Below are positions 27,823 through 43,971 of a stretch of 55,654 nt of DNA, in pieces (within the stretch, counting starts at the first letter, position 1; every line of letters starts with the position of its first letter). The stretch lies in the NCBI GenBank assembly GCA_902776195.1, contig CACYPF010000013.1, positions 1-55,654 on the forward strand, written 5' to 3'. The DNA is from an uncultured Prevotellaceae bacterium. Lineage in GTDB: Bacteria; Bacteroidota; Bacteroidia; Bacteroidales; Bacteroidaceae. The translations under genes were made by a program, and so were the position numbers. A model generated the notes under the pieces. That model was given only the letters and a program-made list of their open reading frames with translations, made no database searches and was not told the DNA's origin.

Positions 27823-28380
27823 GTGATATTACCTATATATATATATGGTCATCCCGTGCTTCGCAAGGTAGCCGAGGATATACCTGCTGACTATCCTGGT
27901 CTGCAGCAGTTGATTGCTGATATGTGGGATACGCTGGCAGAGAGTGAGGGCATTGGTCTTGCCGCCCCTCAGGTTGGCAAATCAATTCGGGTGGTTGTAA
28001 TTGATTTGGATGTCCTCAGTGATGACATGCCGGAATACAAAGGTTTCCGTCATGTGTATATCAACCCTCATATTATTGAATATGATGATACGGAGACGAC
28101 TTCCATGGAGGAGGGTTGTCTGTCACTTCCTGCCATTCATGAGAAAGTGACCCGTCCTACTCGTATCCGTGTACAATGGCTTGACGAGGACTTGAAACCT
28201 CATGACGAATGGGTAGAGGGATATTTGACCCGTGTCATGCAGCATGAGTTCGACCATCTGGATGGAAAGGTCTTCGTGGATCGTATCACTCCACTTCGTA
28301 AACAGCTTATCAAGAGTAAGTTACGTGCACTCACTCAAGGGCGTTACCGTTGCGGATATAAGACCAAAAGCATCAGGTAA
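27823..28380 (+). CDS. def: Peptide deformylase
   Basis: The 185-aa protein has all three deformylase motifs: GIGLAAPQVG, EGCLSLP (metal-binding Cys) and QHEFDHLDG (metal-binding His pair and catalytic Glu). It removes the formyl group from nascent protein N-termini. The start is GTG at 27823, giving the usual ILPIYIYGHPVLR opening. A low-complexity TTTCTAATTTCTCATTTTTAATTT-like stretch fills the 27-bp gap after ruvX. Confidence 0.96.
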   Translation: MILPIYIYGHPVLRKVAEDIPADYPGLQQLIADMWDTLAESEGIGLAAPQVGKSIRVVVIDLDVLSDDMPEYKGFRHVYINPHIIEYDDTETTSMEEGCLSLPAIHEKVTRPTRIRVQWLDEDLKPHDEWVEGYLTRVMQHEFDHLDGKVFVDRITPLRKQLIKSKLRALTQGRYRCGYKTKSIR

Positions 28381-30355: not shown

Positions 30356-30966
30356 TACGTAAACTTCTCTTTCTCCTCGTGATGTTTCCCGTGTGCTGTA
30401 TGGCACAGAGTAAATATTGTGTCACATGGCAGGACTTTCTGGATGGTCAGTGGCGAGAACCCGAGGGCAGGGTAGAGCTTGTCCCCTCGTCAAAGGAGGA
30501 TGCCCTTGCCATGGTGGTCAAGGCAGAGAAGAAGAAAACCGCTCATTTGCTGCGTCGTGGAGCCTGTGTCATGGAGTATGGGGACTCCCTCTATCTCAAC
30601 CTCCGTCGTTTCAATACCTTTGGCGATGTCTATGTGCAGGCATGGCGGTTAGGTCCCGACAAACTCCTTTTTGCTCGTCAGGATGTAGCCCCCACAGGGT
30701 TCAGTGTCACTTTTGGAGGTAATGTGTCCCCATTGTCCAGCAAGTCATTCCGCACCCTCTCCCATTTGGAGAATCTTGTCTGCTATCTTGCCGTATGGGA
30801 TCCCAACCGTGAGGAGCTCCGTATGGCACGAGTCACGGAGGCTGTCGTGCTGCAGCTCCTCACCAACCATCCCGACCAGCTGTCCCACTACCAGTCGTTG
30901 AGTCGCAAACAAAAAGAGAGTGCTGATGTCATCATCACCCTCCTCCATGCCGCCGGCATCATTTGA
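30352..30966 (+). CDS. Secreted protein of unknown function
   Basis: The 204-aa protein has a signal peptide (FLLVMFPVCCMAQ) and a mature domain with alternating beta and helical stretches but no motif I can name. It overlaps the TPR gene by 4 bp (ATGA), so the two are coupled and may form a complex. It is the last gene of the SPOR - ruvX - def - TPR operon and marks the left edge of the accessory block. Confidence 0.75.
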   Translation: MIRKLLFLLVMFPVCCMAQSKYCVTWQDFLDGQWREPEGRVELVPSSKEDALAMVVKAEKKKTAHLLRRGACVMEYGDSLYLNLRRFNTFGDVYVQAWRLGPDKLLFARQDVAPTGFSVTFGGNVSPLSSKSFRTLSHLENLVCYLAVWDPNREELRMARVTEAVVLQLLTNHPDQLSHYQSLSRKQKESADVIITLLHAAGII

Positions 30967-31007
30967 TAGTTGGTGGTACGTGGCTTGAAACCTTCACCTC
31001 GGAGAAT

Positions 31008-31022
31008 TCACAAGGCTTGTGA
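31008..31022. repeat. CACAAG/CTTGTG palindrome, copy 1
   Basis: TCACAAG-G-CTTGTGA is a perfect dyad. It ends 11 bp before the -33 box of the next promoter. Related copies lie at 33441, 39214 and 42607. Confidence 0.6.
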
Positions 31023-31033
31023 TGACTTTTTCC

Positions 31034-31064
31034 TTGGAGGCAAAGAATGAATTTATTATCTTTG
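31034..31064 (+). promoter_or_regulatory. Promoter of the 25-residue-repeat gene
   Basis: TTG (31034-31036), 20 bp, TATCTTTG (31057-31064). The -33 region reads TTGGAGGCAAAG, very like TTTGGTGGCAAAG at the promoter near 39,240. Confidence 0.65.
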
Positions 31065-31088
31065 TCGTGTCATTTATAAATTAAAGTC

Positions 31089-31625
31089 ATGAAAAAAGTT
31101 ATCACATCATTCGTTTTTATGCTATTGGCAACAACTGCCAATGCGCAGTATTATGGAGTCGGTTCGTCAACCAGTTCTACCGACCCATGGGGAACTACCA
31201 CCACGGTCCACAAAGATGCCTATGGCAATCGTACAGGCACTTCCACGTCAAGTACAGACCCGTGGGGTACTACCACGACGACCCATAAGGATGCCTATGG
31301 AAATAGGATAGGGACTTCCACAAGCAGTACCGATTCATGGGGTACTACCACGACGACCCATAAAGATACCTATGGCAATCGTACAGGCACATCGACCAGT
31401 AGCCGGGACTCATGGGGTAACACCAATACCACCTATAAGGACAGTTATGGCAACCGTACAGGCACTTCCACTAGCAGTACAGACTCATGGGGAAACACCA
31501 CCACAACCTATCGAGACTCCTATGGCAACAGAACAGGCACTTCTACGAGCAACACAGACTCATGGGGTAATCGTAATACCCAGCAGCGTAGCAACGATCC
31601 CAATTCAAGTATCTGGACCTGGTAA
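31089..31625 (+). CDS. Secreted tandem-repeat protein (25-aa repeats)
   Basis: This 178-aa protein has a signal peptide (ending near ANAQ) and then six copies of a 25-residue unit of the form D-[PS]-W-G-[TN]-T-x-T-T-x-[HY]-[KR]-D-x-Y-G-N-R-x-G-T-S-T-S. The GAC codons that open each copy fall exactly 75 bp apart at 31182, 31257, 31332, 31407, 31482 and 31557. The composition is Thr/Ser/Gly-rich with one Trp and one Tyr per unit, so a surface fibre, adhesin or amyloid-like role is possible. I do not recognise the family. Confidence 0.8.
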   Translation: MKKVITSFVFMLLATTANAQYYGVGSSTSSTDPWGTTTTVHKDAYGNRTGTSTSSTDPWGTTTTTHKDAYGNRIGTSTSSTDSWGTTTTTHKDTYGNRTGTSTSSRDSWGNTNTTYKDSYGNRTGTSTSSTDSWGNTTTTYRDSYGNRTGTSTSNTDSWGNRNTQQRSNDPNSSIWTW

Positions 31626-31636
31626 ACACGAATAGC

Positions 31637-32149
31637 ATGATGAAAAGATTATGTATCGTAATGGCATTTCTGATAGGGAATGCCATTACCACTTTGGCAC
31701 AATGCTACAAGTTAGACCAAGACCCCGAAGTCAATGGCATCAGAATTGGTATGTCATACATGGAGTTATCCAGCGTCTTGGAATATATAAACAAGACAGA
31801 CATGGGAGCTGATGTCTATGCCGTCAAAGGCAGCCGTTATTATAACCTCTATGGTGTCGTAGTGGATCAAGTTGTCGTTTTCATATATGAAAGTCGAGTA
31901 ACAGGAATATACTTTGTCAAACGCTTTCCCCCAGGCGCCACCTTGCGGTTTACGGAACAGCTGTCGATAGAAGCCGCACTGACCAACAAATACGGTTCCC
32001 CTATGTATAATATCAGCGACCCCACTACTGATCCAGCCCCCTTTGGTGTCCAGTGGCGAGGAAGAAATCATGAGGCAACCGTCTGCACCTATTATTACGG
32101 CATAGACGAAGGCTTTTCTCTTACTTATTTGTTGGCGGAGATTAAGTAG
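31637..32149 (+). CDS. Secreted protein of unknown function
   Basis: This 170-aa protein has a signal peptide (VMAFLIGNAITTLAQ) and a mature domain of about 150 residues with repeated beta-strand-like segments (YNLYGVVVDQVVVFIYE, VTGIYFVKRF). It starts 11 bp after the repeat-protein gene, so the two are probably co-transcribed and the proteins may work together. A second Met directly after the first leaves the start ambiguous by one codon. No function can be assigned. Confidence 0.7.
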   Translation: MMKRLCIVMAFLIGNAITTLAQCYKLDQDPEVNGIRIGMSYMELSSVLEYINKTDMGADVYAVKGSRYYNLYGVVVDQVVVFIYESRVTGIYFVKRFPPGATLRFTEQLSIEAALTNKYGSPMYNISDPTTDPAPFGVQWRGRNHEATVCTYYYGIDEGFSLTYLLAEIK

Positions 32150-32214
32150 AGCTTTCTACGTGAAATTTTTAAAAATTAATTGATGGAAAAATATTAACAT
32201 TCCAATATTTTTTG

Positions 32215-32222
32215 TATCTTTG
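32215..32222 (+). promoter_or_regulatory. -7 element before the HNH gene
   Basis: Exact TATCTTTG, about 85 bp upstream of the HNH endonuclease ATG, leaving an AT-rich leader. Confidence 0.5.
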
Positions 32223-32306
32223 CAGTATCCAAGAACTAAAAAAATAATTCATATCAAAATCAGTTTAATTACTGACATTAATTAATGCAAGAAGGAATTA
32301 AAGCTA

Positions 32307-33176
32307 ATGAAGGAAACTGTGAATACATCTAGTTATCAGAAAAAAGAAAAATCTTCTTTTGTAAAAAAGGAAGATAATCTTGGACAAATAAAACTGTCTT
32401 ATATGACAGGGGCTTCTATGGATATAGTTGATGATATACCAAAAGGATATGAAGACCCAAGATGGATAGAGAAGAGTAATTCTATAAAAGGACGTGATAA
32501 TTATACCTGCCAACTTTGTCATGCTTTTAATCCGATGCAAGGAGGACTCGTTTACATCCAACGAGGGGATTATGAAACCTATCATCATTATGAGGCAGCT
32601 AGTAGAAGTTACATAATACATGTTAAAGACTACGACTTTACAGTCAATTTTGATTTCTATCCAGGCTTTCACTTAGCAATGCCAAGACTTAACGTCCATC
32701 ATAAAATATATTACAGGAATCGAGACATATGGGATTATCAAGATGATTGCTTAATTACATTATGTGAGGACTGCCATCATTACGTTCATTCGTTGAATGA
32801 CATAGGCATTCCTGTGGTAGAGGAAAAATCTACCGGGCAATCTGTTCTTATAGGAAAGACTCAGCCAAAACAATATCAACCAAGATTAGATCATACTGAT
32901 TTAAGTACATTTCCTCCGTTTGCTTTGGTTAAAGAAGATAGATGGGGAGTTGAACTGAGAGAACAAGATAAAAAAGGTTTTGAGCGTGCTATGGCTGAGA
33001 ATAAAAAATGGTATAACTATCATGAAACATTCGATAACCACGTCGCCCATATAAGTTATTTTAAGTCTTATGATCCACGTAGGAACAAGCATACCCCTGA
33101 AGAAATAAAGAAAGTGGCAGATTTCATTATTCTCGATTTTATTGAACATATTTTAGGGTTTAGTAAGAAAAAATAG
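32307..33176 (+). CDS. HNH endonuclease-like protein
   Basis: This 289-aa protein contains a zinc-HNH core: Cys68-x2-Cys71 after a basic RDNYTC, then VHHKIYY (His131/132) and LCEDCHHYVH (Cys153, Cys156, His157/158, His161). Two CxxC pairs framing a His-rich beta-beta-alpha motif mark DNA-cutting HNH nucleases. The long insert between the pairs (about 60 residues) and a 125-residue C-terminal region are unusual. Codon use is clearly more AT-rich than in the core genes. It stands alone, so it may be a defence nuclease or a mobile-element remnant. Confidence 0.75.
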   Translation: MKETVNTSSYQKKEKSSFVKKEDNLGQIKLSYMTGASMDIVDDIPKGYEDPRWIEKSNSIKGRDNYTCQLCHAFNPMQGGLVYIQRGDYETYHHYEAASRSYIIHVKDYDFTVNFDFYPGFHLAMPRLNVHHKIYYRNRDIWDYQDDCLITLCEDCHHYVHSLNDIGIPVVEEKSTGQSVLIGKTQPKQYQPRLDHTDLSTFPPFALVKEDRWGVELREQDKKGFERAMAENKKWYNYHETFDNHVAHISYFKSYDPRRNKHTPEEIKKVADFIILDFIEHILGFSKKK

Positions 33177-33440
33177 TGATAGTTTTGTGGAGGATTTAAT
33201 TGCTGAGAAATAGATTTAACTAGTGATATGAAGAATTTATACTGATTACATTTTTTGTGCTGTTGGGTTTTGCTGGCTTTACACAGATAATAGATAATCC
33301 TCCTGTGTTTGATAGATATGACTAAGATGCATTTATAGTGATAAGGTCAAGATAACTAAAGATGCATCATTTGTTTTCTGCTCATTAATTACACAGAAAC
33401 AGTCAACCGACCAGAGAATATGCAAACCCTTAACCCTAAA
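33177..33440. other. AT-rich gap after the HNH gene
   Basis: No convincing gene is seen. The stretch resembles decayed coding sequence (short interrupted frames), but nothing could be identified. Confidence 0.4.
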
Positions 33441-33458
33441 TCACAAGCCTTGTGATTT
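33438..33458. repeat. CACAAG/CTTGTG palindrome, copy 2
   Basis: AAATCACAAG-C-CTTGTGATTT is a perfect 21-bp dyad, the longest of the four copies. It lies 52 bp upstream of the -7 box at 33511. Confidence 0.6.
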
Positions 33459-33487
33459 TAATATTTTTCAAATTTTCTGTCATTTAC

Positions 33488-33518
33488 TTGCAACTTTGCA
33501 AAATAATCTCTATCTTTG
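33488..33518 (+). promoter_or_regulatory. Promoter of the structured RNA / TerB operon
   Basis: TTG (33488-33490), 20 bp, TATCTTTG (33511-33518). Transcription should begin near 33525, about 180 bp before the TerB-like gene. Confidence 0.65.
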
Positions 33519-33523
33519 CCATT

Positions 33524-33640
33524 GTTCTGCTAAATGTTGAAAGCCCTTAAGTAATCTCATAAGGTGGAACACATGCATACAAAGGCGGTTTCTGACTGGG
33601 ATTTGTTCAGAACAGGCTCCACGTTTTTCGTATGTATCTG
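33524..33640 (+). ncRNA. Putative structured small RNA or leader RNA
   Basis: Several helices are visible in the transcript from the 33511 promoter. GTGGA (33564-33568) pairs with TCCAC (33618-33622). ATGCATAC (33573-33580) pairs with GTATGTAT (33630-33637), crossing the first helix as a pseudoknot. A hairpin TTCTGA/TCAGAA (33590-33595, 33607-33612) lies inside, and CCTTA/TAAGG forms an upstream hairpin. GTTCTG at the 5' end could instead pair with CAGAAC (33608-33613). It could be a 6S-like or other small RNA, or a regulatory leader; the class is not established. Confidence 0.4.
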
Positions 33641-33702
33641 TACTAACCTAAAATAGAAAAAATAGCTTGAGGTAGCCGGGCTGAGAAAAGTATATTTGAT
33701 AA

Positions 33703-34104
33703 ATGGCTATTAGTAAAAGTCTACAATTGCATTTCCTTAATCTTTATTGTATGGTAATAGCAGATGGGATAGTAGATCCAAAGGAAATGGAAACAATTTA
33801 TCGGATAGGACGTGAAAATTATGGACTATCAGAAGAGGAAATTAATAAGGCTGTAGTTGAGGCAGGAACAACGTATGCAATACCAGAGTCTAACGAGGAG
33901 AAAGTTCGAATTCTCTACGAGATGGCTGTTGTTGCATGGGCTGACGGAAAGATTGAAGACTCGGAGCGCAAAATGTTGCGAAGTTATGCTTTGAGATATG
34001 GTGTCATAGAAAAGAGTGTAACATCTTTTGTAGACTATTTATTGGAGAAAGCACATGACGATGTGAGCGAAGAAGATATTATTAAAGAATTGACTAATAA
34101 TTAA
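33703..34104 (+). CDS. TerB-like protein
   Basis: This 133-aa all-helical protein has the two acidic metal-binding loops of the TerB family: ADG at 20-22 followed by Glu28, and ADG at 80-82 followed by Glu88. TerB proteins bind divalent metal and act in membrane-linked stress complexes with VWA-type partners. It is the first gene of a tight same-strand run and is directly followed by a coiled-coil membrane protein and a VWA-like lipoprotein. It is clearly AT-rich. None of the classic tellurite genes terC, terD or terZ is present. Confidence 0.82.
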   Translation: MAISKSLQLHFLNLYCMVIADGIVDPKEMETIYRIGRENYGLSEEEINKAVVEAGTTYAIPESNEEKVRILYEMAVVAWADGKIEDSERKMLRSYALRYGVIEKSVTSFVDYLLEKAHDDVSEEDIIKELTNN

Positions 34105-34113
34105 TAAAAGAAA

Positions 34114-35358
34114 ATGAATTTTAATCTTGATAGTCTCTTTAAAAAAGAGAAACCTGTTGTGTCTAAACCTGCAATAGACATTGAGCCTATAAGTCCAAAT
34201 GATCGCAGGCGAGGTGAAACCTATTATAATTGGGGCCTTAGGATGTGTGCAACTGTTATGGGTACTAGTTATGTTTTATCCCCTTTTTTGCAAAGGGTTT
34301 ATTTGGATATTTATAATGAGCAAGCAAAAAATGTAGAATTACAAGAGCAATTCCGTAAAAATACTCAAGCTCAGATAGATGAACATAATAACAATATAGA
34401 ATCACTTAAAAGTCAGATTGTTAATTCAACAAATAAAAAGAGTGAAAACAAAGAAGAAATAGATGTGTTAGAGCTACAAAGGTCTGAACTGAAGACAAGA
34501 GGAAAGTCAATTAATAAAGATGCTAAAATTAAAATGATACTTGGAATTATTATATTGATTCCTTTGACTTTCTATTTGTTCTTGTTTTATAGTTCAACAT
34601 TTTATACTGGTTTTATCATGGACATAAAAGATGTGACAAATTCTACAGGTGTTGCTATGGCTATGTTTAATCCACAAGCCTTTAGTGGGGCATTAGTCAA
34701 AGGACTTACATCTTTCTTTTTGATATTGAGTTTTCCTGTAGTTTTTCTAGGATTGGGATTTGGGTTGCACTTCTTTTCTGTTCAGCAGTCAAAATCGCGT
34801 TTTCTTAAGATGAGTGCAATATTGGTGGTGACTTTTTTATTTGATTGTATAATAGCTTACAAAATAGGAAAATTCTTATATGATATTGAAGGTATGTGGA
34901 AAGAACAGTCGGATGTCTATACTTTTAATATGGCTATTAGTGATATAAATACATGGGCTGTTATCTTTTGTGGATTTATTGCTTATATTATATGGGGGAT
35001 AGTTTTTGATATGGCAATGAGTGCATATAGTAAGTTGGATTTAAATAAAGAGGAGACAAAAATGATTGACAACAAAATTCAACGATTAAAAGATGAAAAT
35101 GTACGAATTAATGAACAGATTGCTAATTATAACAAACAGATAACCTCTTTAAAAAATGAAATAAGCAGTTTGATGGCAAAACTTAGTAACAATGTTAATA
35201 TCAATATTAATGAAATAAAAAAGGAAATGACGAATTTCTATAATGGATGGATTACCCAGATGGGAGTGTTGGGTTGTAATCAGCAGGACCAGAGTATGGC
35301 AAATGCAACCTTTCAAAACATATTAAATACGCTAGTTAACAACAATACTATTAAATAA
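34114..35358 (+). CDS. Four-helix membrane protein with two cytoplasmic coiled coils
   Basis: This 414-aa protein has a polar N-terminus, a first coiled coil (about residues 65-135), four membrane helices (about 141-166, 190-222, 233-252 and 283-303) and a second coiled coil (about 310-385), then a polar tail. I do not recognise the family. The symmetric coiled-coil / membrane / coiled-coil build would suit a scaffold joining cytoplasmic TerB (9 bp upstream) to the lipoprotein encoded 6 bp downstream. GC content is very low. Confidence 0.75.
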   Translation: MNFNLDSLFKKEKPVVSKPAIDIEPISPNDRRRGETYYNWGLRMCATVMGTSYVLSPFLQRVYLDIYNEQAKNVELQEQFRKNTQAQIDEHNNNIESLKSQIVNSTNKKSENKEEIDVLELQRSELKTRGKSINKDAKIKMILGIIILIPLTFYLFLFYSSTFYTGFIMDIKDVTNSTGVAMAMFNPQAFSGALVKGLTSFFLILSFPVVFLGLGFGLHFFSVQQSKSRFLKMSAILVVTFLFDCIIAYKIGKFLYDIEGMWKEQSDVYTFNMAISDINTWAVIFCGFIAYIIWGIVFDMAMSAYSKLDLNKEETKMIDNKIQRLKDENVRINEQIANYNKQITSLKNEISSLMAKLSNNVNININEIKKEMTNFYNGWITQMGVLGCNQQDQSMANATFQNILNTLVNNNTIK

Positions 35359-35364
35359 ATAATT

Positions 35365-36186
35365 ATGAAAAAGAATTTTATATTCCTAATTTTGGTATGC
35401 GTGTTAGTTTCTTGTGGTAGTAGAGAGACATCACAAGAAGTAACTCAACTACCTCTTAATATCTCCGTCTTCATAGATCTATCTGACAGATTAGTACGAG
35501 AAATGGAACCTAATCAGATGTCAAGAGATACTGCAATTATTGGATATTTGGCTGATTATTTCAAATCTGTCACATTAGGTCCGCAGATTCTTAGTAGTAA
35601 GAACAACATCAAAGTGTTTTTCTATCCTACACCACAGAATTCTGATATTGTAACATTGGCACAAGGATTATGCGTGGATTTAAGCACTTTGCAAGGTAGC
35701 GATAGAAAAAAAGCTATTTTATCAATGAAAAGAAATTTTCAAAATAATCTTACTCAAATATATAGCAAAGCGATTGATGATGGCAACAATCACAAATGGC
35801 CAGGCTGTGATATTTGGGATTTCTTTAGTAGTAAAAAAGTTGATGTACAGTGTATTAGAAAAGATTATCGAAATATACTGATTATATTGACAGATGGTTA
35901 TTTGTATGAAGGAAGTAATAAAATGCAAGATAATCATGCTTATTCTTATGTTTTACCTCAGACCTTAAAAGATCCAGAATCATCACTTATTGTTAAAAGG
36001 CAAGGACTTGATGATTTGGAAGTTCGCATTTTAGAGGTTAATCCTTATAACAAACAGGAGGGATACAAATTAGTTCCCGTCCTAGAAAACTGGTTAAAAG
36101 GAATGGGTGTACAAAAGATAACTGTATCAGAAACCGACTTGCCTACTAATACACAAACAATAATCAAAAGTTTTTTAGAAGATTAA
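35365..36186 (+). CDS. VWA-like lipoprotein
   Basis: This 273-aa lipoprotein has a lipobox LVSC (Cys17) and a Rossmann-like alpha/beta domain. The first strand ISVFIDLSDR gives Asp38-x-Ser40, and a later strand ILIILTDGY gives Asp177-Gly178, the placement of MIDAS residues in von Willebrand A domains; the third Ser of DxSxS is Arg, so the site is incomplete. Ter-type systems pair TerB with VWA proteins, normally in the cytoplasm; a lipid-anchored one is unusual. It is the third gene of the run. Confidence 0.72.
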   Translation: MKKNFIFLILVCVLVSCGSRETSQEVTQLPLNISVFIDLSDRLVREMEPNQMSRDTAIIGYLADYFKSVTLGPQILSSKNNIKVFFYPTPQNSDIVTLAQGLCVDLSTLQGSDRKKAILSMKRNFQNNLTQIYSKAIDDGNNHKWPGCDIWDFFSSKKVDVQCIRKDYRNILIILTDGYLYEGSNKMQDNHAYSYVLPQTLKDPESSLIVKRQGLDDLEVRILEVNPYNKQEGYKLVPVLENWLKGMGVQKITVSETDLPTNTQTIIKSFLED

Positions 36187-36196
36187 TAGTTCATAT

Positions 36197-36433
36197 ATGG
36201 GGAATACTCTTATGGTATTTGTGTTTTTGTTGATGACAAACATCACATCTTTCTGTACATTACAGAGTGTTCAGGGTGAAACTTATGTGTATATTTGTAC
36301 AGGAGGGAATGCGTATAGGTATCATTGTAATAGTGAGTGTAGTGGGTTAAATAGATGTCATGCAGAAATAAAGAAAGTTACATTGGAGTATGCAAAATCA
36401 AAAAGGCGCACACCTTGTAGAATATGTTATTAA
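36197..36433 (+). CDS. Small secreted Cys/His zinc-site protein
   Basis: This 78-aa protein has a signal-peptide-like N-terminus (to about residue 27) and a domain with His43, Cys44, Cys48, Cys54, His55 and Cys74-x2-Cys77 (PCRIC). The pattern Y-H-x4-C ... C-x2-C suggests one structural metal site. The same pattern recurs in the C-terminal domain of the protein at 37129-37728. It lies 10 bp after the VWA lipoprotein gene. An internal Met6 could also be the start. Confidence 0.65.
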   Translation: MGNTLMVFVFLLMTNITSFCTLQSVQGETYVYICTGGNAYRYHCNSECSGLNRCHAEIKKVTLEYAKSKRRTPCRICY

Positions 36434-36451
36434 TGGGGAAGTATCTATAAT

Positions 36452-37105
36452 ATGGCAAGAGATGATTCTAATAGTGGATGTGGTTGCTTGATTCTTATCG
36501 TTATTGCAATTGCGCTTATAGTGAACAAATGTAATGATTCAGACTCGTCATCATCCTCTTCAACAAAAACTACAACATCAATGATAACGACAAAAGCAGA
36601 GTCTAGCAACTCTGCTTACCAATATAGTAATTCTCAAGATTATTCTGTAGTAGATGAACTTTCTTCCGAGGACAAACAATATGAATATAATTCATTATCA
36701 ACAGGAGTTACACCATATACGGCATATTATGGACAGAACTATAAATGTCCGTATGAGCAATGTTCTGGTATAAAAGTAACAGCTCCCTCCGAAAGTGATA
36801 TTGTTGTAATTATTAAAAGGAGCAATCAAAATGGCAAAGTAATTGCCCATGGATATATCAAAGCTGGAGGTTCATTGCAATTTGATATCCCAGATGGAAC
36901 ATACCAAACGTTTTTCTACTACGGCATAGGGTGGAATCCCAACAAAGATATGGGAAATGGAGTGAAAGGTGGTTTCGTGAAAAACGAGATTTTTTCGAAG
37001 GATAATCCTCAAGATATTTATAGCGGTATTTTAACTTATGTTCTCCAATTGCAACGTGATGGTAATTTCCAGACTAAGGGGAGTAATAGAGGTGAAGTTT
37101 TTTAA
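36452..37105 (+). CDS. Membrane-anchored beta-rich protein of unknown function
   Basis: This 217-aa protein has one N-terminal membrane helix (about residues 10-27, with a CGC motif before it), a long Ser/Thr-rich linker (about 30-75) and a folded C-terminal domain with strands such as SDIVVIIKRSN and GTYQTFFYYGIG. No lipobox is clear, so it is probably an inner-membrane anchored periplasmic protein. It continues the TerB run (18-bp gap). Confidence 0.65.
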   Translation: MARDDSNSGCGCLILIVIAIALIVNKCNDSDSSSSSSTKTTTSMITTKAESSNSAYQYSNSQDYSVVDELSSEDKQYEYNSLSTGVTPYTAYYGQNYKCPYEQCSGIKVTAPSESDIVVIIKRSNQNGKVIAHGYIKAGGSLQFDIPDGTYQTFFYYGIGWNPNKDMGNGVKGGFVKNEIFSKDNPQDIYSGILTYVLQLQRDGNFQTKGSNRGEVF

Positions 37106-37128
37106 AAATTAGGAATGATAGGAAGATT

Positions 37129-37728
37129 ATGGAAAAAGTCAAACAATCGTACTTATCCAACCTGATTGGTGAGCACAGTTATGAGGAGTATTCCAGTATA
37201 GCAAAGAAGGTTGTCGGAATTGGTGGACTTGTATTGGTTATTCTTTTTACACTGTCTCAATTCTTCCATTCAGGCATTGTCAATTACTTGCTGAAACTCA
37301 CAACAGGCACATCGCTGCTGTTTATCGCATATATTGCTGCATGCATCTTATTGCTGGATATACGTGTAGAAGTGGAAAAACAGGAAAAGGAATGGTGGGA
37401 AAATAAGAAAGAGTGTCCCCAGTCCTTAAAGTACAAACTTAGTGTTGTGTGGGGTGTCGTTTTGTTGTTGCTGGGTATTGCTGCAATCTATTTCAGTAAT
37501 AAGTATAGAAATCGGTACGATTTCGAATGTACTACATTCCTGGTTGATCATAAAGCTCATATCTATCATTTGGATTGGAATGATGATTGCGAAAATGCTG
37601 CGAATGCCGAGAAACTTGAAGAGATGTATGGATATGAAATAGATGATTCTTATTCTTTCTGTGAAGAATGCAAAGAATACGAAGATGATATGGAATCTGA
37701 AGCATCTGTTGCGCATATAAGAAGATGA
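37129..37728 (+). CDS. Membrane protein with C-terminal Cys/His domain
   Basis: This 199-aa protein has three predicted membrane helices (about 29-47, 58-77 and 103-122) and an acidic C-terminal domain with His144, His147, Cys154 and Cys178-x2-Cys181. The arrangement mirrors the small secreted protein at 36197 (Y-H ... C ... C-x2-C with 24-26 residues between). Both probably hold a metal. No enzymatic motif is seen. Confidence 0.68.
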   Translation: MEKVKQSYLSNLIGEHSYEEYSSIAKKVVGIGGLVLVILFTLSQFFHSGIVNYLLKLTTGTSLLFIAYIAACILLLDIRVEVEKQEKEWWENKKECPQSLKYKLSVVWGVVLLLLGIAAIYFSNKYRNRYDFECTTFLVDHKAHIYHLDWNDDCENAANAEKLEEMYGYEIDDSYSFCEECKEYEDDMESEASVAHIRR

Positions 37729-37776
37729 GAGGTATCTGGCTAATATACGTTCTTATTTTTATAAAAGATTGGTAAA

Positions 37777-39177
37777 ATGAATACAATATACCTATTCCTT
37801 GCAGCGATCTTGCTGCTGTGTTTGGCTCCGATGCCGTATGGCTATTATGTCCTTGTCAGGTTTCTGTCAATGGTGGGATTTGGCATCATGGCATATCGCT
37901 ATTATCAAGAGAAGAAAGAGTCTCTTGCTTGGACATTTGGTATTTTGGCTTTGTTGTTTCAACCATTTGCAAAGATTGCTTTAGGCAGACTGATATGGAA
38001 TATAGTAGACGTGATAGTGGCTGTTGGGCTAATTATCTTGTTTTTCATTAAAAAGAAAGAGAAGGAGTCTCGGCAAGTTATACCTCTTAATCCCAAAGAG
38101 TCCTCGGAATCAGAAAAGCAAGAGAATAACAGGTTTGAGTTTCAATTGGAGGGGAAACTGGCTCCCAAGGAATTGATATATGTTGCCAGTGAGGAAGACA
38201 GAATACTGACAGAATTGTTCGAGAAGAGTCCTGAAGTGTTTGAAGGGTGGGGGCAAATGATAGGTTACCATGTGATTTATCTACCTCTGTTATTGAAACG
38301 GTTGAAAAATGCGGAAGTGCTACAATATCGTGCACCATATTTGACAAATGTGGAGATTGCAAGTACTAATCTCAAAAATGACTTCTTGCTGCAATATCTG
38401 AATAATCCTTCGGATAAAATGCATATCAAGCATGGATTAATCCGTACAGAAGATATTCACAGAGGTGGTGACGGGAAAGATAAGGCTATTAATAGATTCT
38501 ATCCTTTGACATCTAATAGCTCTGAGCCTATCGCAGACCAGTTGCACAGAATAGGTAAACAGATATCTATCGAGCAGCAACAACATGATCGATTAATTGA
38601 AAGTTATGATGACTGGGGTGATGTTGTCAGCGGTGGGGCTGATGATGGCTTCAATTCTCAATTAGCAGAAGAGAATATTGATGACTTGATTGAAGAGGTG
38701 AAGGAGAGAATCCTTAAGTTAAGACAAAGGGGTATATCACAATATATCTTGGAACAGTTGATACATCCAGACGACCGGCTTAGTAAAATGGTCATCACCA
38801 AAGATTATCGAATTATCTTGCCAGACTACAACAATATGGAAATCAAAATGGAACCTCTTGTGAAAGCAGTTTATCTGTTGTTCCTGGCTCATCCCGAAGG
38901 AATATTGTTTAAGCGTCTTCCGGATTATCGTGAGGAACTTACACGTTTATATGTGAAGTTGAGACCAACGGGATTGACTGATAGGGTGTTGCGGAGCATC
39001 GAGGATGTGACGAATCCTGTACTTAACTCAATCAATGAGAAGTGTGCTCGTATCCGTGGTGCTTTTGTCGGACAGTTTGATGACCATATTGCTCGCCATT
39101 ACTATATCGACGGACTACGTGGTGAACCCAAGAAGATTTCCCTTCCTCGTGACTTGGTTATTTGGGAAACCGATTAA
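37777..39177 (+). CDS. DUF6804-like membrane protein with SLPRDLV-tail domain
   Basis: This 466-aa protein starts with four short membrane helices (to about residue 92) that look like DUF6804, then a charged region and a C-terminal domain (about 330-466) with VYLLFLAHPEGILFKRLPDY, NSINEKCARIRGAF and the ending KKISLPRDLVIWETD. I associate this C-terminal domain with uncharacterised Bacteroidetes accessory proteins. It lies 48 bp after the previous gene with no promoter of its own that I can see. Sequence nearly identical to its last dozen residues reappears at 41717-41758 and, weaker, near 42647. Confidence 0.68.
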   Translation: MNTIYLFLAAILLLCLAPMPYGYYVLVRFLSMVGFGIMAYRYYQEKKESLAWTFGILALLFQPFAKIALGRLIWNIVDVIVAVGLIILFFIKKKEKESRQVIPLNPKESSESEKQENNRFEFQLEGKLAPKELIYVASEEDRILTELFEKSPEVFEGWGQMIGYHVIYLPLLLKRLKNAEVLQYRAPYLTNVEIASTNLKNDFLLQYLNNPSDKMHIKHGLIRTEDIHRGGDGKDKAINRFYPLTSNSSEPIADQLHRIGKQISIEQQQHDRLIESYDDWGDVVSGGADDGFNSQLAEENIDDLIEEVKERILKLRQRGISQYILEQLIHPDDRLSKMVITKDYRIILPDYNNMEIKMEPLVKAVYLLFLAHPEGILFKRLPDYREELTRLYVKLRPTGLTDRVLRSIEDVTNPVLNSINEKCARIRGAFVGQFDDHIARHYYIDGLRGEPKKISLPRDLVIWETD

Positions 39178-39213
39178 AGTCGCTTCGCTTGTCGAAGCAT
39201 AAATTCACATTTC

Positions 39214-39226
39214 CACAAGGCTTGTG
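39214..39226. repeat. CACAAG/CTTGTG palindrome, copy 3
   Basis: CACAAG-G-CTTGTG, a perfect 13-bp dyad, 11 bp before the -33 box of the DnaB-like gene promoter. Confidence 0.6.
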
Positions 39227-39237
39227 AAGTAAAATCG

Positions 39238-39269
39238 TTTGGTGGCAAAGGTACAAGTTCGTATCTTTG
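39238..39269 (+). promoter_or_regulatory. Promoter of the DnaB-like gene
   Basis: TTTG (39238-39241), 20 bp, TATCTTTG (39262-39269). This is a full consensus promoter, about 25 bp upstream of the ATG. Confidence 0.7.
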
Positions 39270-39294
39270 CCACTGAATTTTAATATGCAGAATT

Positions 39295-40311
39295 ATGACA
39301 AGTGTGAACAAGATGATGAGCGATGACAGCTATATCAATATGCGGGAGATGTTGAAGGATTGCATCTCTGATGTAGAGGAAAGGGCTATAAATACAGGTG
39401 TGCCAGGAATCCCTACGGGTTTTCAGCCGTTAGACGATTTGATTGGTGGCTTCGAGAAGGGGAAAGTATATGTGATTGGCGGAAGGCCTTGCATGGGAAA
39501 AGAAGAACTCATGCTGTCAATGATAATAGACATCATTTTAGAAAGCAAACTGTCCGTGTTGTTGTTCTCGACGAATCATCAGAAGGCAGACTATGTACAA
39601 AGGCTTCTTGCCATCCATTGTGACATACTTGTTATGCACTTGTTTCAAGGGTCGTTGGAACCTCATGAGTGGGATAGGTTGGATAAACGGACAGGTGAAT
39701 TGGTAGATGCGCCATTGTTTATGCATGACAGTTTGGATTTGCCGCTTAACGAATTGGTCGAAACTGCACGAAATTGTATCAGAGAGAAGGAGGTGAAAAT
39801 CATCCTTATAGACTGTCTGCAAATGGTTGACTTTACAAATGAAGACGACAATCCTTCTGATAGAGTTGCGAAGGTGATGCTTTCATTAAAACAACTGGCT
39901 CGTTTATGCAATATACCTATCATAGTAGGATCCATGTTGAGTAGAGGGATAGAATACCGAGAAGGACTTGAGGGCAAACAGCCTCAGTTGATGGATTTGA
40001 TGAACTCTAGTTTTATCGAGGGTCTTGCTGATGTTATCATGATGGTGCATCGTCCTGAGTATTATCACATCTATCAAGATGATAATGGGCGAAATCTGCG
40101 AGGGCTGATAGAAATCATTGTAAGAAAGAATGCCCTTAAACCATTGGGCAGCATTTTCCTGGACTATCATGAGAAAACGGGTGTAGTATGCGTAAGGAAG
40201 AATGGTAAAAGTACTTCAAAGCCTGTCAGCCTGAAAGATTTTAGTCCATTTAATGAACCTGTGAAAAAGTTAATCAAAGAACTTGATCTTGAAGAAGAAT
40301 TACCATTTTAA
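39295..40311 (+). CDS. DnaB-like RecA-fold protein with degenerate ATPase site
   Basis: This 338-aa protein matches the C-terminal motor domain of replicative helicase DnaB but lacks the primase-binding N-terminal domain. Recognisable parts are TGFQPLDDLIGGFEKG, Walker B IILIDCLQMVD (Asp173) and CNIPIIVGSMLSRGIEYR. The P-loop is GRPCMGKE (63-70): the Gly before Met is Cys and the essential Thr/Ser after Lys69 is Glu. The catalytic Glu of FSLEMS is replaced (FSTNHQ). It is therefore probably a non-hydrolysing relative, perhaps a decoy, a sensor or a loader. A 154-aa protein gene follows. Confidence 0.82.
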   Translation: MTSVNKMMSDDSYINMREMLKDCISDVEERAINTGVPGIPTGFQPLDDLIGGFEKGKVYVIGGRPCMGKEELMLSMIIDIILESKLSVLLFSTNHQKADYVQRLLAIHCDILVMHLFQGSLEPHEWDRLDKRTGELVDAPLFMHDSLDLPLNELVETARNCIREKEVKIILIDCLQMVDFTNEDDNPSDRVAKVMLSLKQLARLCNIPIIVGSMLSRGIEYREGLEGKQPQLMDLMNSSFIEGLADVIMMVHRPEYYHIYQDDNGRNLRGLIEIIVRKNALKPLGSIFLDYHEKTGVVCVRKNGKSTSKPVSLKDFSPFNEPVKKLIKELDLEEELPF

Positions 40312-40331
40312 CATTATAAACCGATGAAGAT

Positions 40332-40796
40332 ATGACAGATTTCGAGTACATTCTGCAACAGGCAAGACTTTTCCATTATAAAGGATGGGAGGATAGTGAG
40401 TTAAGAAAGTGTGTAGATATGCTACCATCACTTACCAGACAAGAACTTGTGGCTTTATACAGGAGTAAGTGGATATCAGATGGAAGAATCATCAAACAGA
40501 CGATATTCAACATCCTCTTTAAAGATAAGGTTGGGAAACGCGAGGAGCGAATTAAAACGGAAGATACAAGTGCTCTTATAAAGGAGTTCCAAGACAAGAA
40601 AGGTGGCAATGTTGCATTGGCCCGGAAAGAACTGCGTGAGCGATATAAGGCAGGGAAGGATAAACAACAGATAGCAACGATATTCAATTCCTCTACAAAA
40701 AGTGACCAACAGTGGGTGAAGTCTCAGATACGGAAAGAACGCTATGGCGACTCGAACGGCAATAATTATCAGTGGAAGAAACCGTCATGGAAGTAA
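40332..40796 (+). CDS. Protein of unknown function, partner of the DnaB-like gene
   Basis: This 154-aa, mainly helical, basic protein opens with an aromatic N-terminus and contains GWEDSELRKCVDMLPSLTRQ and a Lys/Arg-rich second half. No family is recognised. It starts 20 bp after the DnaB-like gene and shares its promoter, so a joint role on DNA is a reasonable guess. A 24-codon mini-frame (40798-40872) starts right after its stop. Confidence 0.65.
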   Translation: MTDFEYILQQARLFHYKGWEDSELRKCVDMLPSLTRQELVALYRSKWISDGRIIKQTIFNILFKDKVGKREERIKTEDTSALIKEFQDKKGGNVALARKELRERYKAGKDKQQIATIFNSSTKSDQQWVKSQIRKERYGDSNGNNYQWKKPSWK

Positions 40797-40797
40797 A

Positions 40798-40872
40798 ATG
40801 AGTGTCAACGGACACTACTTCTCGCGTATCTTCTGGCAACAGATTGGTGATGAGTTTAAGAGAATTTATTAA
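40798..40872 (+). other. 24-codon mini-ORF, possible gene-end remnant
   Basis: ATG at 40798 directly follows the TAA of the preceding gene (TAAAATG) and encodes MSVNGHYFSRIFWQQIGDEF and four more residues. The peptide looks like the end of a larger protein rather than a functional small one. Confidence 0.35.
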
Positions 40873-40888
40873 TTCACAAGAATTTTAT

Positions 40889-40896
40889 TAACTTTG
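40889..40896 (+). promoter_or_regulatory. -7 element before the ADP-ribosylglycohydrolase gene
   Basis: Exact TAACTTTG, 17 bp upstream of the ATG. A half-site TTCACAAG of the local palindrome lies just upstream at 40873-40880. Confidence 0.5.
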
Positions 40897-40913
40897 CAGA
40901 AAAAAAGAATTTT

Positions 40914-41717
40914 ATGGGGAAATTTAACATGTTAGGGGCACTGGTAGGCGATATAGTCGGCTCTGTGTATGAGTTTTGCAATACAAAGTCAACGGATTTT
41001 GAATTATTCTGTGGTGCGAGTAATTTTACGGATGATTCTGTGATGACATTAGCGGTTGCGAAATGGTTACTGGAAGATGAGGCACACACGATCCATTATC
41101 TCATATATTGCATGCAAGAACTTGGAAACCATCACCCCAATGCTGGGTATGGTGGACGGTTTGCAGGATGGCTATGTGAAGACAATCCCCAGCCGTACAA
41201 CAGCTGGGGTAATGGGGCGGGCATGCGTGTTAGTCCTGTGGGACTGTATGCCAAGACGCTTGATGAAGCGTTGGCACTTGCTGCATTAACGGCATCTGTG
41301 AGTCATAATCATCCAGAAGGAGTGAAAGGTGCACAGGCAATCGCTACAAGTGTATTTCTCTGCAAGCAGGGGAAGTCGAAACAAGAAATCAAAGAATATG
41401 TCGAGAAAACGTTTGGCTATAACTTACATCGCACTATTGCAGAGATTCGTCCGAGATACGAATTCGATGTGTCCTGTCAGGGTAGTGTTCCTGAAGCGAT
41501 TATAGCTTTTTTGGAAGGTAACTCCTTTGAGGAAGTGATTCGTCTGGCAATCTCGCTTGGTGGTGATTCGGATACCATTGGTTCAATGGCAGGAGGCATC
41601 GCCGCTTGTATGTATCCTATCCCAGAAGAGATTGCCGAACGATGCGATAACATTCTTACTGCCGATTTAAGGGAAATAAAAGATAAGTTTATCCAAATGA
41701 TTGAAGCAAATGATTGA
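40914..41717 (+). CDS. ADP-ribosylglycohydrolase family protein
   Basis: This 267-aa protein has the dinuclear metal motifs of DraG/ARH enzymes: GDIVGSVYE with FTDDSVMTLAVAKWLL near the N-terminus, and SLGGDSDTIGSMAGGIA near the C-terminus. It removes ADP-ribose from modified protein or nucleic acid. In an accessory block this could reverse a toxin-type modification. An internal Met six codons in is an alternative start. The stop codon overlaps a 13-codon mini-ORF (TGATG). Confidence 0.9.
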   Translation: MGKFNMLGALVGDIVGSVYEFCNTKSTDFELFCGASNFTDDSVMTLAVAKWLLEDEAHTIHYLIYCMQELGNHHPNAGYGGRFAGWLCEDNPQPYNSWGNGAGMRVSPVGLYAKTLDEALALAALTASVSHNHPEGVKGAQAIATSVFLCKQGKSKQEIKEYVEKTFGYNLHRTIAEIRPRYEFDVSCQGSVPEAIIAFLEGNSFEEVIRLAISLGGDSDTIGSMAGGIAACMYPIPEEIAERCDNILTADLREIKDKFIQMIEAND

Positions 41718-41758
41718 TGACGATTTCGTTACCTCGTGACTTGGTGGTGTGGGAGTGA
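41717..41758 (+). pseudogene. 3'-end remnant of an SLPRDLV-tail gene
   Basis: The mini-ORF encodes MTISLPRDLVVWE and stops. It nearly repeats the C-terminus of the 466-aa protein at 39177 (KKISLPRDLVIWETD), with high DNA identity over about 32 bp. Its ATG overlaps the stop of the ADP-ribosylglycohydrolase. It is most simply the stump of a lost paralogue. Confidence 0.55.
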
Positions 41759-41761
41759 GAA

Positions 41762-41791
41762 GGACCCCCTCGGTCCCCCTGTTTAGGGGGA
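41762..41791. repeat. GC-rich REP-like hairpin element
   Basis: Two mutually exclusive hairpins overlap: GGACC-CCCTC-GGTCC (41762-41776) and TCCCCCT-GTTT-AGGGGGA (41774-41791 region). The element sits between gene remnants and a terminator and resembles dispersed intergenic repeats of Prevotella-type genomes. Confidence 0.5.
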
Positions 41792-41808
41792 GGAATGAAG
41801 AAAAATAA

Positions 41809-41835
41809 CCGAAAGTTTTGCGCTTTCGGCTTTTA
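41809..41835 (+). terminator. Intrinsic terminator before mntA
   Basis: CCGAAAG (41809-41815) pairs with CTTTCGG (41823-41829), followed by CTTTTAT. The loop holds the TTTG that serves as -33 box of the next promoter. Confidence 0.65.
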
Positions 41836-41847
41836 TGCTTATCTTTG
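41817..41847 (+). promoter_or_regulatory. mntA-hepT promoter
   Basis: TTTG (41817-41820), 19 bp, TATCTTTG (41840-41847). This is a full consensus promoter overlapping the terminator hairpin, about 20 bp before the ATG. Confidence 0.65.
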
Positions 41848-41868
41848 CCACGATAAAACTAAATCTTT

Positions 41869-42162
41869 ATGAAGAAGGATGAGTGTATCTTGTTGCTTAA
41901 AACGTGCATGAACATACTTAAAGAAAAGTATGGAATTACTTCTTTGTCTCTTTTTGGCTCGACAGCAAGAGGTGAGCAAAAGGAGGGAAGCGACATTGAC
42001 CTGTTTGTTGATACAGAAACGCCAAACCCTTTCCTCCTGATGGATGCCAAAGAGTTTTTGGAGGAAGCTACAGGTACTTCAGTTGATATAGTTCGTAATC
42101 ATCAGAACTTGAATCCTCGATTAAGAAGACGTATATTAAAAGATGGAATCTTTATCTTCTGA
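41869..42162 (+). CDS. Minimal nucleotidyltransferase antitoxin (MntA-like)
   Basis: This 97-aa protein has the polymerase-beta-type nucleotidyltransferase motif GSTARGE (30-36) and SDID (41-44; Asp42 and Asp44 bind metal), with a third Asp in SVDIV. In characterised pairs, MntA silences the HEPN toxin by adding AMP residues to a tyrosine next to its active site. The stop overlaps the HEPN gene by 20 bp, the usual antitoxin-first arrangement. Confidence 0.9.
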   Translation: MKKDECILLLKTCMNILKEKYGITSLSLFGSTARGEQKEGSDIDLFVDTETPNPFLLMDAKEFLEEATGTSVDIVRNHQNLNPRLRRRILKDGIFIF

Positions 42163-42532
42163 AACCAAAGGCATTGCTTTAGATATCCTTGAGGACATTC
42201 TATCAGCGATTGAGAAACTTGAGGAGCGGACAAAAGACATTCACTCTATTGATGATTTCCTTGCTTCGGCTTCTGGTATGGTGCTATTGGATGCCACATG
42301 TATGTTGCTTATTGCTATAGGCGAAAGCCTGAAAAACCTTGATAAAACTACGGAGGGAGTACTTTTGCCTATGTATCCTTCTATACCATGGAAAAATATC
42401 AAAGGATTACGAGATATTATTGCTCATCATTATTTTGATGTGGATGCTTCACAAATCCTTTGGATTATTAAGAACGAGGTTTCTCCTTTAAAGAATGCTA
42501 TCCAATTCTTTATAAAGGAATTGAATAAATGA
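42143..42532 (+). CDS. HEPN-domain toxin (HepT-like)
   Basis: This 129-aa helical protein has the HEPN ribonuclease motif R-x4-H as Arg90-Asp-Ile-Ile-Ala-His95, followed by a tyrosine (Tyr97), the residue AMPylated by MntA in known systems. HepT toxins cut RNA and stop growth. It is co-encoded with the nucleotidyltransferase. The pair looks intact. A phage-defence or plasmid/island-maintenance role is typical of the family; which applies here is unknown. Confidence 0.9.
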   Translation: MESLSSETKGIALDILEDILSAIEKLEERTKDIHSIDDFLASASGMVLLDATCMLLIAIGESLKNLDKTTEGVLLPMYPSIPWKNIKGLRDIIAHHYFDVDASQILWIIKNEVSPLKNAIQFFIKELNK

Positions 42533-42606
42533 AATAACTTGGAATAGTGATTTGATACTGGTGAATAAATTGATCAGAGATCTCATCGGAAATAATCTTT
42601 TATTTC

Positions 42607-42619
42607 CGCAAGCCTTGTG
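42607..42619. repeat. CACAAG/CTTGTG palindrome, copy 4 (imperfect)
   Basis: CGCAAG-C-CTTGTG pairs over 6 bp with one G-U. It precedes a TTTG-N20-TATCTTTA string, but no plus-strand gene follows. Confidence 0.45.
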
Positions 42620-42646
42620 AACATTTGGATGTATTACGAAAAAACA

Positions 42647-42691
42647 GTATCTTTACCGAGAGAGCTTGTGGTGAAAACCTTTTCCAGTTGA
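42647..42691 (+). pseudogene. Possible second remnant of an SLPR[DE]LV-tail gene
   Basis: In the frame starting at 42647 the DNA reads VSLPRELVVKTFSS and a stop. This is similar to the C-terminal tail of the 466-aa protein, preceded by YYEKT. The match is short and could be chance. Otherwise the 179-bp gap between hepT and vanW holds no gene. Confidence 0.35.
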
Positions 42692-42711
42692 GGTCACCCT
42701 CATGTAAGTGG

Positions 42712-43533
42712 TCACCCGGCATTATTATCTGAAGACGGCAGCTCGTACATGACCCTGGCATGATTCGTGCGGATGAGTTGTCTCTCCACGCAGTTGCCAG
42801 TCGTGCGGTCAATGATGTCCCGATAGACCTTGCCGTTGCGATAGAAGAAGTCCCCTTCCTGGGAGAAATGTTCATCCTCCACATGAATATGGAAGGTGTG
42901 CGGTTGCACTTCCATGGCACGCAACTCTCCACAGAGATACTCGCCATCCACCCAGAGACGGAGCTGATAGGTGTTGGTCGTGTCATTCCTTACCCGGTAG
43001 TCAATATAGTTGTATGAGATGCTGGTCCCCGTACCGAAAGGAATCTGTCTGCCAAAATCGGGAAAGAGGTCTAAGCCGTCGTGATGATGATGCTCGGTAA
43101 TCGTCAGCTCACTATGCAGCACCATCCAGTGTATCAGGTTAGACAACTGGCACAGTCCGCCACCGATTCCCTGCGACGGTGCTCCCTTCGCTATGGTCAG
43201 TCCCTCTTTGTAACCTTTCCGTTTGGTGGTACGCCCCACCTGTCTCCATACCGAGAACGTCTCACCCGGTCGGATCAGCAGTCCGTCGATATGCTTCACT
43301 GCCAAGGCGAGGTTGACCGCTTTGTTTTCCTGCAGTTGCATGTTGACATTACCCAACCTGCGGCGAATCAGTGAGTTATGACTATAGACCAGGACGGGCA
43401 GTGGCTCCTCTGTCCGTTCGTGGGCAAACGGTGTCTTACTGATGAAGTCTCTCAGATGACGTTTCAGTATCTCTTTCTCCACCGACAGCCTGTAGGTGAA
43501 GGGTGATATCTCACAAAACAGTTTCCTTTTCAT
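42712..43533 (-). CDS. VanW family protein
   Basis: From ATG 43533 the protein is 273 aa. It shows the VanW core: GETFSVWRQVGRTT, KRKGYKEGLTI, GIGGGLCQLSNLIHW and a C-terminal beta domain. VanW was named from vancomycin-resistance clusters, but its biochemical function is unclear and no other van gene is here. An upstream ATG at 43587 lies inside the promoter (43592-43585) and is excluded. It is divergent from the vsr remnant. Confidence 0.88.
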   Translation of the reverse strand: MKRKLFCEISPFTYRLSVEKEILKRHLRDFISKTPFAHERTEEPLPVLVYSHNSLIRRRLGNVNMQLQENKAVNLALAVKHIDGLLIRPGETFSVWRQVGRTTKRKGYKEGLTIAKGAPSQGIGGGLCQLSNLIHWMVLHSELTITEHHHHDGLDLFPDFGRQIPFGTGTSISYNYIDYRVRNDTTNTYQLRLWVDGEYLCGELRAMEVQPHTFHIHVEDEHFSQEGDFFYRNGKVYRDIIDRTTGNCVERQLIRTNHARVMYELPSSDNNAG

Positions 43534-43584
43534 CACGCTATTGTTTTTGTAAATCCGTTTATGGTACTGCTTCCTTTCATTTTG

Positions 43585-43675
43585 CAAAGATAAGCAGCAT
43601 TTCCGATACTTCCAAATTTATGTTCGAGAAAATTTGTCATTCTTTTGGTATTCTGCTCACATCATCGTATCTTTG
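43585..43675. promoter_or_regulatory. Divergent promoters: vanW (-) and vsr remnant (+)
   Basis: Minus: TATCTTTG at 43592-43585. Plus: TTTG (43644-43647), 20 bp, TATCTTTG (43668-43675), a full consensus now driving only the vsr remnant. Confidence 0.6.
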
Positions 43676-43693
43676 CAAAGAAATAGTTAAGAC

Positions 43694-43903
43694 ATGTCAG
43701 ACAAGCTCACCCCACAACAACGCCATAAGAATATGGCTGCTATCCGGTCGAAAGACACGAAACCGTCGAAACGGGAGGAGACGCTGGACTCCATCGCTTT
43801 CACATTAAACCATATATGGTTGCAGGACCACCATGCAAAATCTGTAGCCAGTAATCATTCTGAAGAAGAAAGCGGAGCAGTACCTATGGCGGCAGAAGAG
43901 TGA
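43694..43903 (+). pseudogene. vsr remnant: very-short-patch-repair endonuclease with internal deletion
   Basis: The 69-aa frame joins the conserved N-terminus of Vsr (LTPQQRHKNMAAIRSKDTKPS, residues 5-25) directly to what looks like the Vsr C-terminus (REETLDSIAFTLNHIWLQ). Vsr nucleases are about 140-150 aa, so roughly 75 central residues with the catalytic Asp and His are missing. The frame is kept. Repeated GAAACSG around the junction suggests deletion between short repeats. No cytosine methyltransferase gene is present. It cannot be catalytically active. Confidence 0.75.
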
Positions 43904-43971
43904 CTCACCCGATTTTGATAAATATAATACAAATAAATTTGCATTCTCTTCGCTAAATCGAAATTTTACAC

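Follow-up and report, generated by a model that had tools for sequence, protein, structure and literature searches.

This report concerns a group of genes in a 55,654-nucleotide stretch of DNA (the window) from an uncultured Prevotellaceae bacterium, contig CACYPF010000013.1. Between positions 33703 and 37728 lie six open reading frames (ORFs), all on the + strand and with successive gaps of 9, 6, 10, 18 and 23 bp, which agrees with a first-pass annotation that had read six same-strand genes spaced by 6-23 bp as one possibly undescribed unit. The constant part of this arrangement is the first three genes only, encoding a TerB-domain protein, a four-transmembrane (TM) coiled-coil protein (CC) and a VWA-like lipoprotein (protein 3), while genes 4-6 are optional. 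The trio is real, conserved and, as far as the literature search reaches, undescribed; no account of a TerB-CC-VWA trio was found in the literature searched, though the Ter paper PMC4104200 might mention it. We propose tentatively that it is an inner-membrane complex with exchangeable effectors whose likeliest job is defence, in or close to the envelope, against phages or other invading elements.

The features of the locus are collected in Table 1. ORFs were taken as the longest open frames, and their starts and overlaps are therefore approximate. A terminator-like hairpin and a promoter-like site, the latter picked up by a pattern of the Bacteroides type, lie after the DUF6804 gene, so the operon may extend from TerB to DUF6804.

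Table 1. Features of the TerB-CC-VWA locus in the window.
Feature	Position	Strand	Remarks
TerB-domain protein, 133 aa	33703..34104	+	core gene 1; predicted cytosolic; PF05099
CC, four-TM membrane protein, 414 aa	34114..35358	+	core gene 2; no named family
VWA-like lipoprotein, 273 aa, predicted extracytoplasmic	35365..36186	+	core gene 3; DLSDR replaces DxSxS metal motif
Small Cys/His protein, 78 aa, hydrophobic N-terminus	36197..36433	+	optional partner
N-terminally anchored protein, 217 aa	36452..37105	+	optional partner
Membrane protein, C-terminal Cys/His motif, 199 aa	37129..37728	+	optional partner
DUF6804 membrane domain + unnamed C-terminal domain, one 466-aa protein	37777..39177	+	recurrent partner, beyond the range first annotated; PF20619 E 2.2e-29
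Terminator-like hairpin	39237..39278	+	pattern scan; overlaps promoter-like site
Bacteroides-type promoter-like site	39238-39269		pattern scan; between DUF6804 gene and DnaB-like gene
Segment holding the module, 13.6 kb	30372..43971		absent between TPR gene and gene at 44013 in same-genus loci

Relatives were searched for with protein 3 and then with its profile in samples of 201 genomes from the family, 393 from the order and 395 from the phylum. Matches were obtained in 12/201 family genomes (5 of them weak and dropped), 13/393 order genomes and 20/395 phylum genomes, which places the trio in approximately 3-5% of sampled genomes. Within its genus, the genome of the window was the only one matched, 12 other same-genus genomes in the family-sample listing being without a match. 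A CC profile matched 29 genomes of the phylum sample, 20 at E 4.4e-23 or better and 9 at E 4.3e-7 or weaker, and the 20 strong ones are the same genomes that protein 3 matched. A scan of genome contigs returned 448 stretches encoding protein 3 relatives; among the best 80, 76 read from their record labels as Bacteroidota.

Pooling gave 118 loci, reduced to 107 after removal of redundancy. The first three genes do co-occur in other Bacteroidota: the complete trio is present in 86/107 loci, in the order TerB, CC, VWA in all 86, with median gaps of 3 bp between TerB and CC and 4 bp between CC and VWA. The remainder comprises 5 loci cut by a contig end, 12 without a detectable TerB and 4 without CC; among the latter, L112 and L121 begin at a contig edge, the VWA gene of L019 is truncated, and L124 is seemingly a true orphan. 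Across 79 loci, pairwise identities for one protein of the trio correlate with those for the other two (Pearson 0.69-0.82, Spearman 0.41-0.62), which is what shared descent would give. In L101, L105, L141 and L166, the trio or the VWA gene stands on contigs labelled as Bacillota, Succinivibrio, Treponema and Roseburia metagenome-assembled genomes, probably misbinned Bacteroidota contigs.

The product of the first gene matches PF05099 by direct hmmscan (E 5.9e-9, 36.7 bits against a cut-off of 24.4), and its family profile finds the TerB-type structures 2ou3 (7.2e-5) and 2h5n (8e-4). A TerB search of the whole genome reported a single TerB, on contig C17, and overlooked the window gene, although direct hmmscan detects it clearly. 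The duplicated acidic TerB motif (D21, E28, D81 and E88) is kept in 24/24 aligned rows. TerB is linked to metals, and this full retention of the motif counts for a different reading of the trio, as a Ter-type envelope-stress or metal-response complex in which TerB and the VWA site would sense metal or redox stress across the inner membrane, with nucleases and small exported proteins as stress-linked cargo and no dedicated anti-phage role. The same side is favoured by the description of TerB-C as putatively metal chelating in the passages of PMC10653889 and by the association of the ter operon with phage and also with Zn, Mn and tellurite in those of PMC12054061. In two of the TerB-less loci (L145:3694-3972 and L147:8466-8741), the position 5 bp ahead of CC is taken by a gene for 91-92 aa, in both cases from the same family and judged PH-like by eye, which looks like a substitute for TerB. 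In L014:7730-9778, a protein with TPR and aspartyl-protease parts occupies the TerB place, 50 bp before CC.

The second protein, CC, is predicted to have four TM helices and coiled coils at residues 74-128 and 310-358. These precede and follow the TM block, as first annotated, in sequence order; in topology both are predicted to lie on the cytoplasmic side. No Pfam model reaches its cut-off with CC and no TerC model matched it. In L061, L101, L140 and L152, CC appears as two ORFs, which may reflect a frameshift, a split gene, a duplication or an assembly error.

The third protein combines a lipobox-type Cys with a predicted VWA fold. As a single sequence it found no convincing match in Pfam, PADLOC, NCBIfam or PHROGs, and only 3 of its 73 relatives matched VWA_2, weakly (best E 6.7e-4). 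The fold is common to BatB of Bacteroides (3ibs), Rpn10 and TFIIH p34, with identities of 6-16% in the rows listed. The classical MIDAS metal motif is DxSxS ... T ... D. The VWA family departs from it and its metal site is atypical by sequence, with DLSDR in place of DxSxS: D38, S40, R42 and D177 are invariant in 73/73 rows, the second Ser being an Arg, and D149 would stand in the place of the MIDAS Thr. The N-terminus ahead of the domain carries a lipid-type Cys in 64/73 relatives and is plainly hydrophobic in 9/73; this replacement of the lipid anchor points to a VWA domain at the periplasmic face of the inner membrane. Thus, the lipoprotein with an incomplete metal site and the TerB-like protein of the first-pass annotation are both borne out, their folds being upheld by hidden Markov model and structure prediction, and the proposed envelope-spanning complex is narrowed to one predicted to span the inner membrane.

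Beyond the trio, the first-pass grouping does not hold up. Cys/His motifs are visible by eye in ORF4 and at the C-terminal end of ORF6, the two proteins first annotated as Cys/His, and ORF5, annotated as membrane-anchored, has a single N-terminal hydrophobic stretch. As a functional unit, the six-gene block has in its favour the short intergenic gaps in the window and the presence of genes 5 and 6 after the trio in L089 and L095 too. However, relatives of ORF4 occur in 12/107 loci (operon-chained in 7), those of ORF5 adjoin the core in four (L089, L090, L095 and L118) and those of ORF6 in two (L089 and L095), whereas DUF6804, outside the block, is present in 18/107 loci and operon-chained in 15/107, against 0/653 far genes with labelled families included. 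The six-gene reading is already largely refuted and can hardly be upheld.

The gene company of the trio was examined in hand-picked operon-chained ORFs (64/81 downstream and 72/129 upstream), excluding short ORFs, near-duplicates and the three genes that follow DUF6804 in the window. As a control, length-matched genes at least 5.5 kb away were taken from the same loci, a local rather than genome-wide baseline; family-labelled genes were excluded, and of the 125 usable genes 124 were aligned, one being set aside by hand. Among the Pfam matches listed, the downstream set contains DUF6804 (8), Endonuclease_NS (4), DUF4236 (3), SNase (2), Exo_endo_phos (2), CHAT (1) and BrxC/D (1), and the upstream set DUF6804 (7), Transglut_core (6), DUF1508 (5), HSDR_N (5), caspase (4), TIR (4), DUF4236 (4) and FGE-sulfatase (4), the domain that we take FGS effectors to denote. 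None of the families just named is among the 25 of 177 families listed for the 124 far genes, labelled genes being excluded there. In Chitinophaga, the operon order is caspase, TIR-FGE, c21, TerB, CC, VWA (Pfam run singly on L142 and L161), c21 being taken from the counts as DUF1508. In L164 (Chitinophaga filiformis), a BrxC/D-type ATPase and a DEAD helicase directly follow the trio, 96 bp past the VWA gene. Four strong PADLOC matches occur once each in the near set (BrxHI 3.3e-160, SngC 7.4e-130, BrxD 5.9e-79 and SngB 8.5e-57) and are assigned by their domains to this pair; since both model sets match it, the BREX one better, the pair is of a kind common to BREX and Shango. An ATPase remnant of 86 residues (95% identity) is found in L167, and the pair in no other compared locus. 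Many of the loci L069-L083 and L160 (Flavobacterium aquicola) have, upstream of the trio, two recurring genes identified by eye: c4, resembling a TPR histidine kinase, and c3, resembling a response regulator; such two-component-like genes in Flavobacterium-type loci would suit a stress-response complex.

Export signals among the partners bear on another alternative, in which the trio handles or assembles exported nucleases and small proteins of the envelope, or serves periplasmic DNA processing (uptake or degradation), with no signalling relay. Hydrophobic N-termini are enriched in downstream partners (43/76 against 180/603), and export-type N-termini were recognised by script in four Endonuclease_NS neighbours identified through a motif, one with a lipobox and three hydrophobic, the one compared being closest to EXOG/EndoG nucleases. 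Nevertheless, no ATPase, channel or secretin was recognised in the core, an exported nuclease stands in the chain at few loci only, and upstream partners show no such enrichment (33/118), which makes this alternative improbable.

The module lies within a 13.6-kb insertion, or within a segment lost by its relatives. The blastn match to the same-genus locus L168 breaks at 30371 and resumes at 43972. In 5/6 same-genus loci a gene matching 44013-45956 (thrS by eye) comes next after the TPR gene, and the sixth retains a TPR fragment; none of the six gave a blastn match to the segment or a tblastn match to any of eight island genes. The block is AT-rich, as annotated at first: in 2-kb windows, GC is 0.31-0.36 at 32-38 kb and 0.39-0.43 at 37-43 kb, against 0.44-0.53 outside the island, the first 1.6 kb of the insertion not being AT-rich. 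Of the neighbours first listed there, the HNH nuclease gene (32307-33176; PHROG 1.9e-8) and the ADP-ribosylglycohydrolase gene (40914-41717; related to ARH3, E 5e-15) are confirmed, and the toxin-antitoxin pair corresponds to nucleotidyltransferase-like and HEPN-like small genes at 41869-42532 recognised by eye alone, a search with the second finding no solved relative. Because a 526-bp gap precedes TerB, the HNH gene is probably not in the operon. The segment 39295-40796 encodes a 338-aa protein with a DnaB C-terminal domain (PF03796 3.5e-56) and no N-terminal domain, then a 154-aa protein, a relative of which is also encoded downstream of the trio in Prevotella L089. At 31089-31625 lies a gene for a protein with a hydrophobic N-terminus, composed mostly of repeats of unit type GTSTSSTDSWGNTTTTYRDSYGNRT. 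Phosphohexomutase-like and/or RuvX-like genes, by eye, surround the trio in the window (27379-28380 and 48696-50108) and in L014, L057, L058 and L060, possibly a recurrent insertion neighbourhood in several Bacteroidales.

Among known systems, the trio resembles in its presumed working a TerB system of the Ter or Shango type, yet it is classed with neither, because it lacks defining features of both for which it was tested. With Ter it shares the TerB domain and, as outlined in passages of PMC7824862, the notion that TerB acts at the membrane together with a TM protein and a VWA protein. It differs in that the genome, 93.55% complete, contains no match to the TerD/TerZ family (PF02342), no TerC lies in the locus and CC matches no TerC model; its VWA domain, moreover, is predicted outside the cytosol with an altered metal site, rather than TerF-like below the membrane. 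The first-pass statement that terC, terD and terZ are absent therefore stands genome-wide for TerD/TerZ and for the locus in the case of TerC, the single TerC match of the genome being on contig C11, away from the locus. The missing TerD, the patchy distribution and island location, which are more in keeping with accessory conflict genes than with housekeeping control of stress, and TIR, caspase and BREX/Shango-type partners, which are not typical stress genes, together make the stress or metal-response reading unlikely, if still a serious competitor.

Shango consists of TerB, an ATPase and a DEAD/DEAH helicase (PMC10250203, in part). The trio shares the TerB gene, and in L164 it precedes an ATPase-helicase pair matched by SngB/SngC models; given that composition, the L164 trio may stand where the TerB of Shango would. 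In contrast, the pair scores better with BrxD and BrxHI, no SngB/SngC-type ATPase or helicase was matched among the ten window proteins scanned, and the passages of PMC10250203 mention no four-TM or VWA protein. The VWA-centred NTP-dependent conflict and GAP1-N2 systems, as far as passages of PMC7159879 describe them, resemble the trio in their VWA domains, some outside the membrane, and in FGS effectors; TerB, however, has no occurrence in that text. The window operon contains no MoxR or GTPase gene, the neighbour lists of the relatives covering the best 25 families. SepT of Anabaena unites TM helices, coiled coils and a TerB-C domain (PMC10653889, in part), which would accord with a structural envelope scaffold shaping septa or peptidoglycan. 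Unlike the trio, SepT is a single polypeptide with a cytoskeletal role and, in those passages, no VWA partner; it marks a whole filamentous cyanobacterial clade, whereas the trio is sparse in the sampled genomes and unmatched in other members of its genus, and a scaffold is very improbable.

The following arrangement is proposed from predicted topology and gene company. TerB, CC and VWA would form a conserved inner-membrane complex in which the VWA domain, held at the periplasmic face by its lipid or hydrophobic anchor, may engage an extracytoplasmic partner or signal. CC, by its predicted topology, could use its conserved membrane core and its first periplasmic loop to relay this signal to the cytosolic coiled-coil hairpin, where TerB would bind and license or gather effectors. 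The latter may be exchanged by lineage: exported nucleases, restriction-type nucleases, transglutaminase, DUF6804, caspase with TIR-FGE, or a BREX/Shango-type ATPase-helicase. Defence is the use that we tentatively place first, ahead of a Ter-like stress response. Somewhat less likely is the specific form of a new envelope-crossing immune sensor of Bacteroidota, in which the outward VWA detects phage or DNA entry and the coiled-coil hairpin and TerB trigger TIR-caspase, exported nucleases or the BREX/Shango-type ATPase-helicase.

Several observations weigh against a defensive role for such a complex. Its first-noted closeness to defence genes is seen as pointed company in Chitinophaga and exported nucleases elsewhere, but the genes close to the trio do not match more PADLOC families (74 for 136 genes) than those farther out (82 for 124 genes). 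The TIR/caspase company is confined to one genus and the ATPase-helicase pair, which scores higher with BREX (BrxHI, BrxD) than with Shango models (SngC, SngB), to one locus and a remnant in a second; DUF6804 and other membrane partners are counted in the enrichment of hydrophobic N-termini. The trio is named by no PADLOC model (PDC-S48 for TerB at 7.3e-5, coil matches for CC with LmuB best at 5.8e-8, none for VWA), and no obvious toxin effector accompanies the window copy. TerB is undetectable in 12/107 loci despite room for one. The 20/20 overlap of CC and VWA genomes owes something to the CC profile, which was built from genes adjacent to VWA genes and might overlook lone, more distant CC genes. 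Searches of viral contigs, of phages with the VWA query and of plasmids with the CC query found no relative, and hence no sign of carriage by them.

TerB is found in phage- and stress-linked loci such as Shango and Ter, and here it is tied to a membrane protein of an unnamed family and to a VWA domain predicted outside the membrane. The two unnamed families of the trio serve as search handles, as the stretches found to encode relatives of the VWA protein illustrate. The trio would offer a testable design, with an outside sensor, a relay, TerB inside and exchangeable effectors, and may provide a bridge to TIR-caspase and BREX/Shango-type genes.

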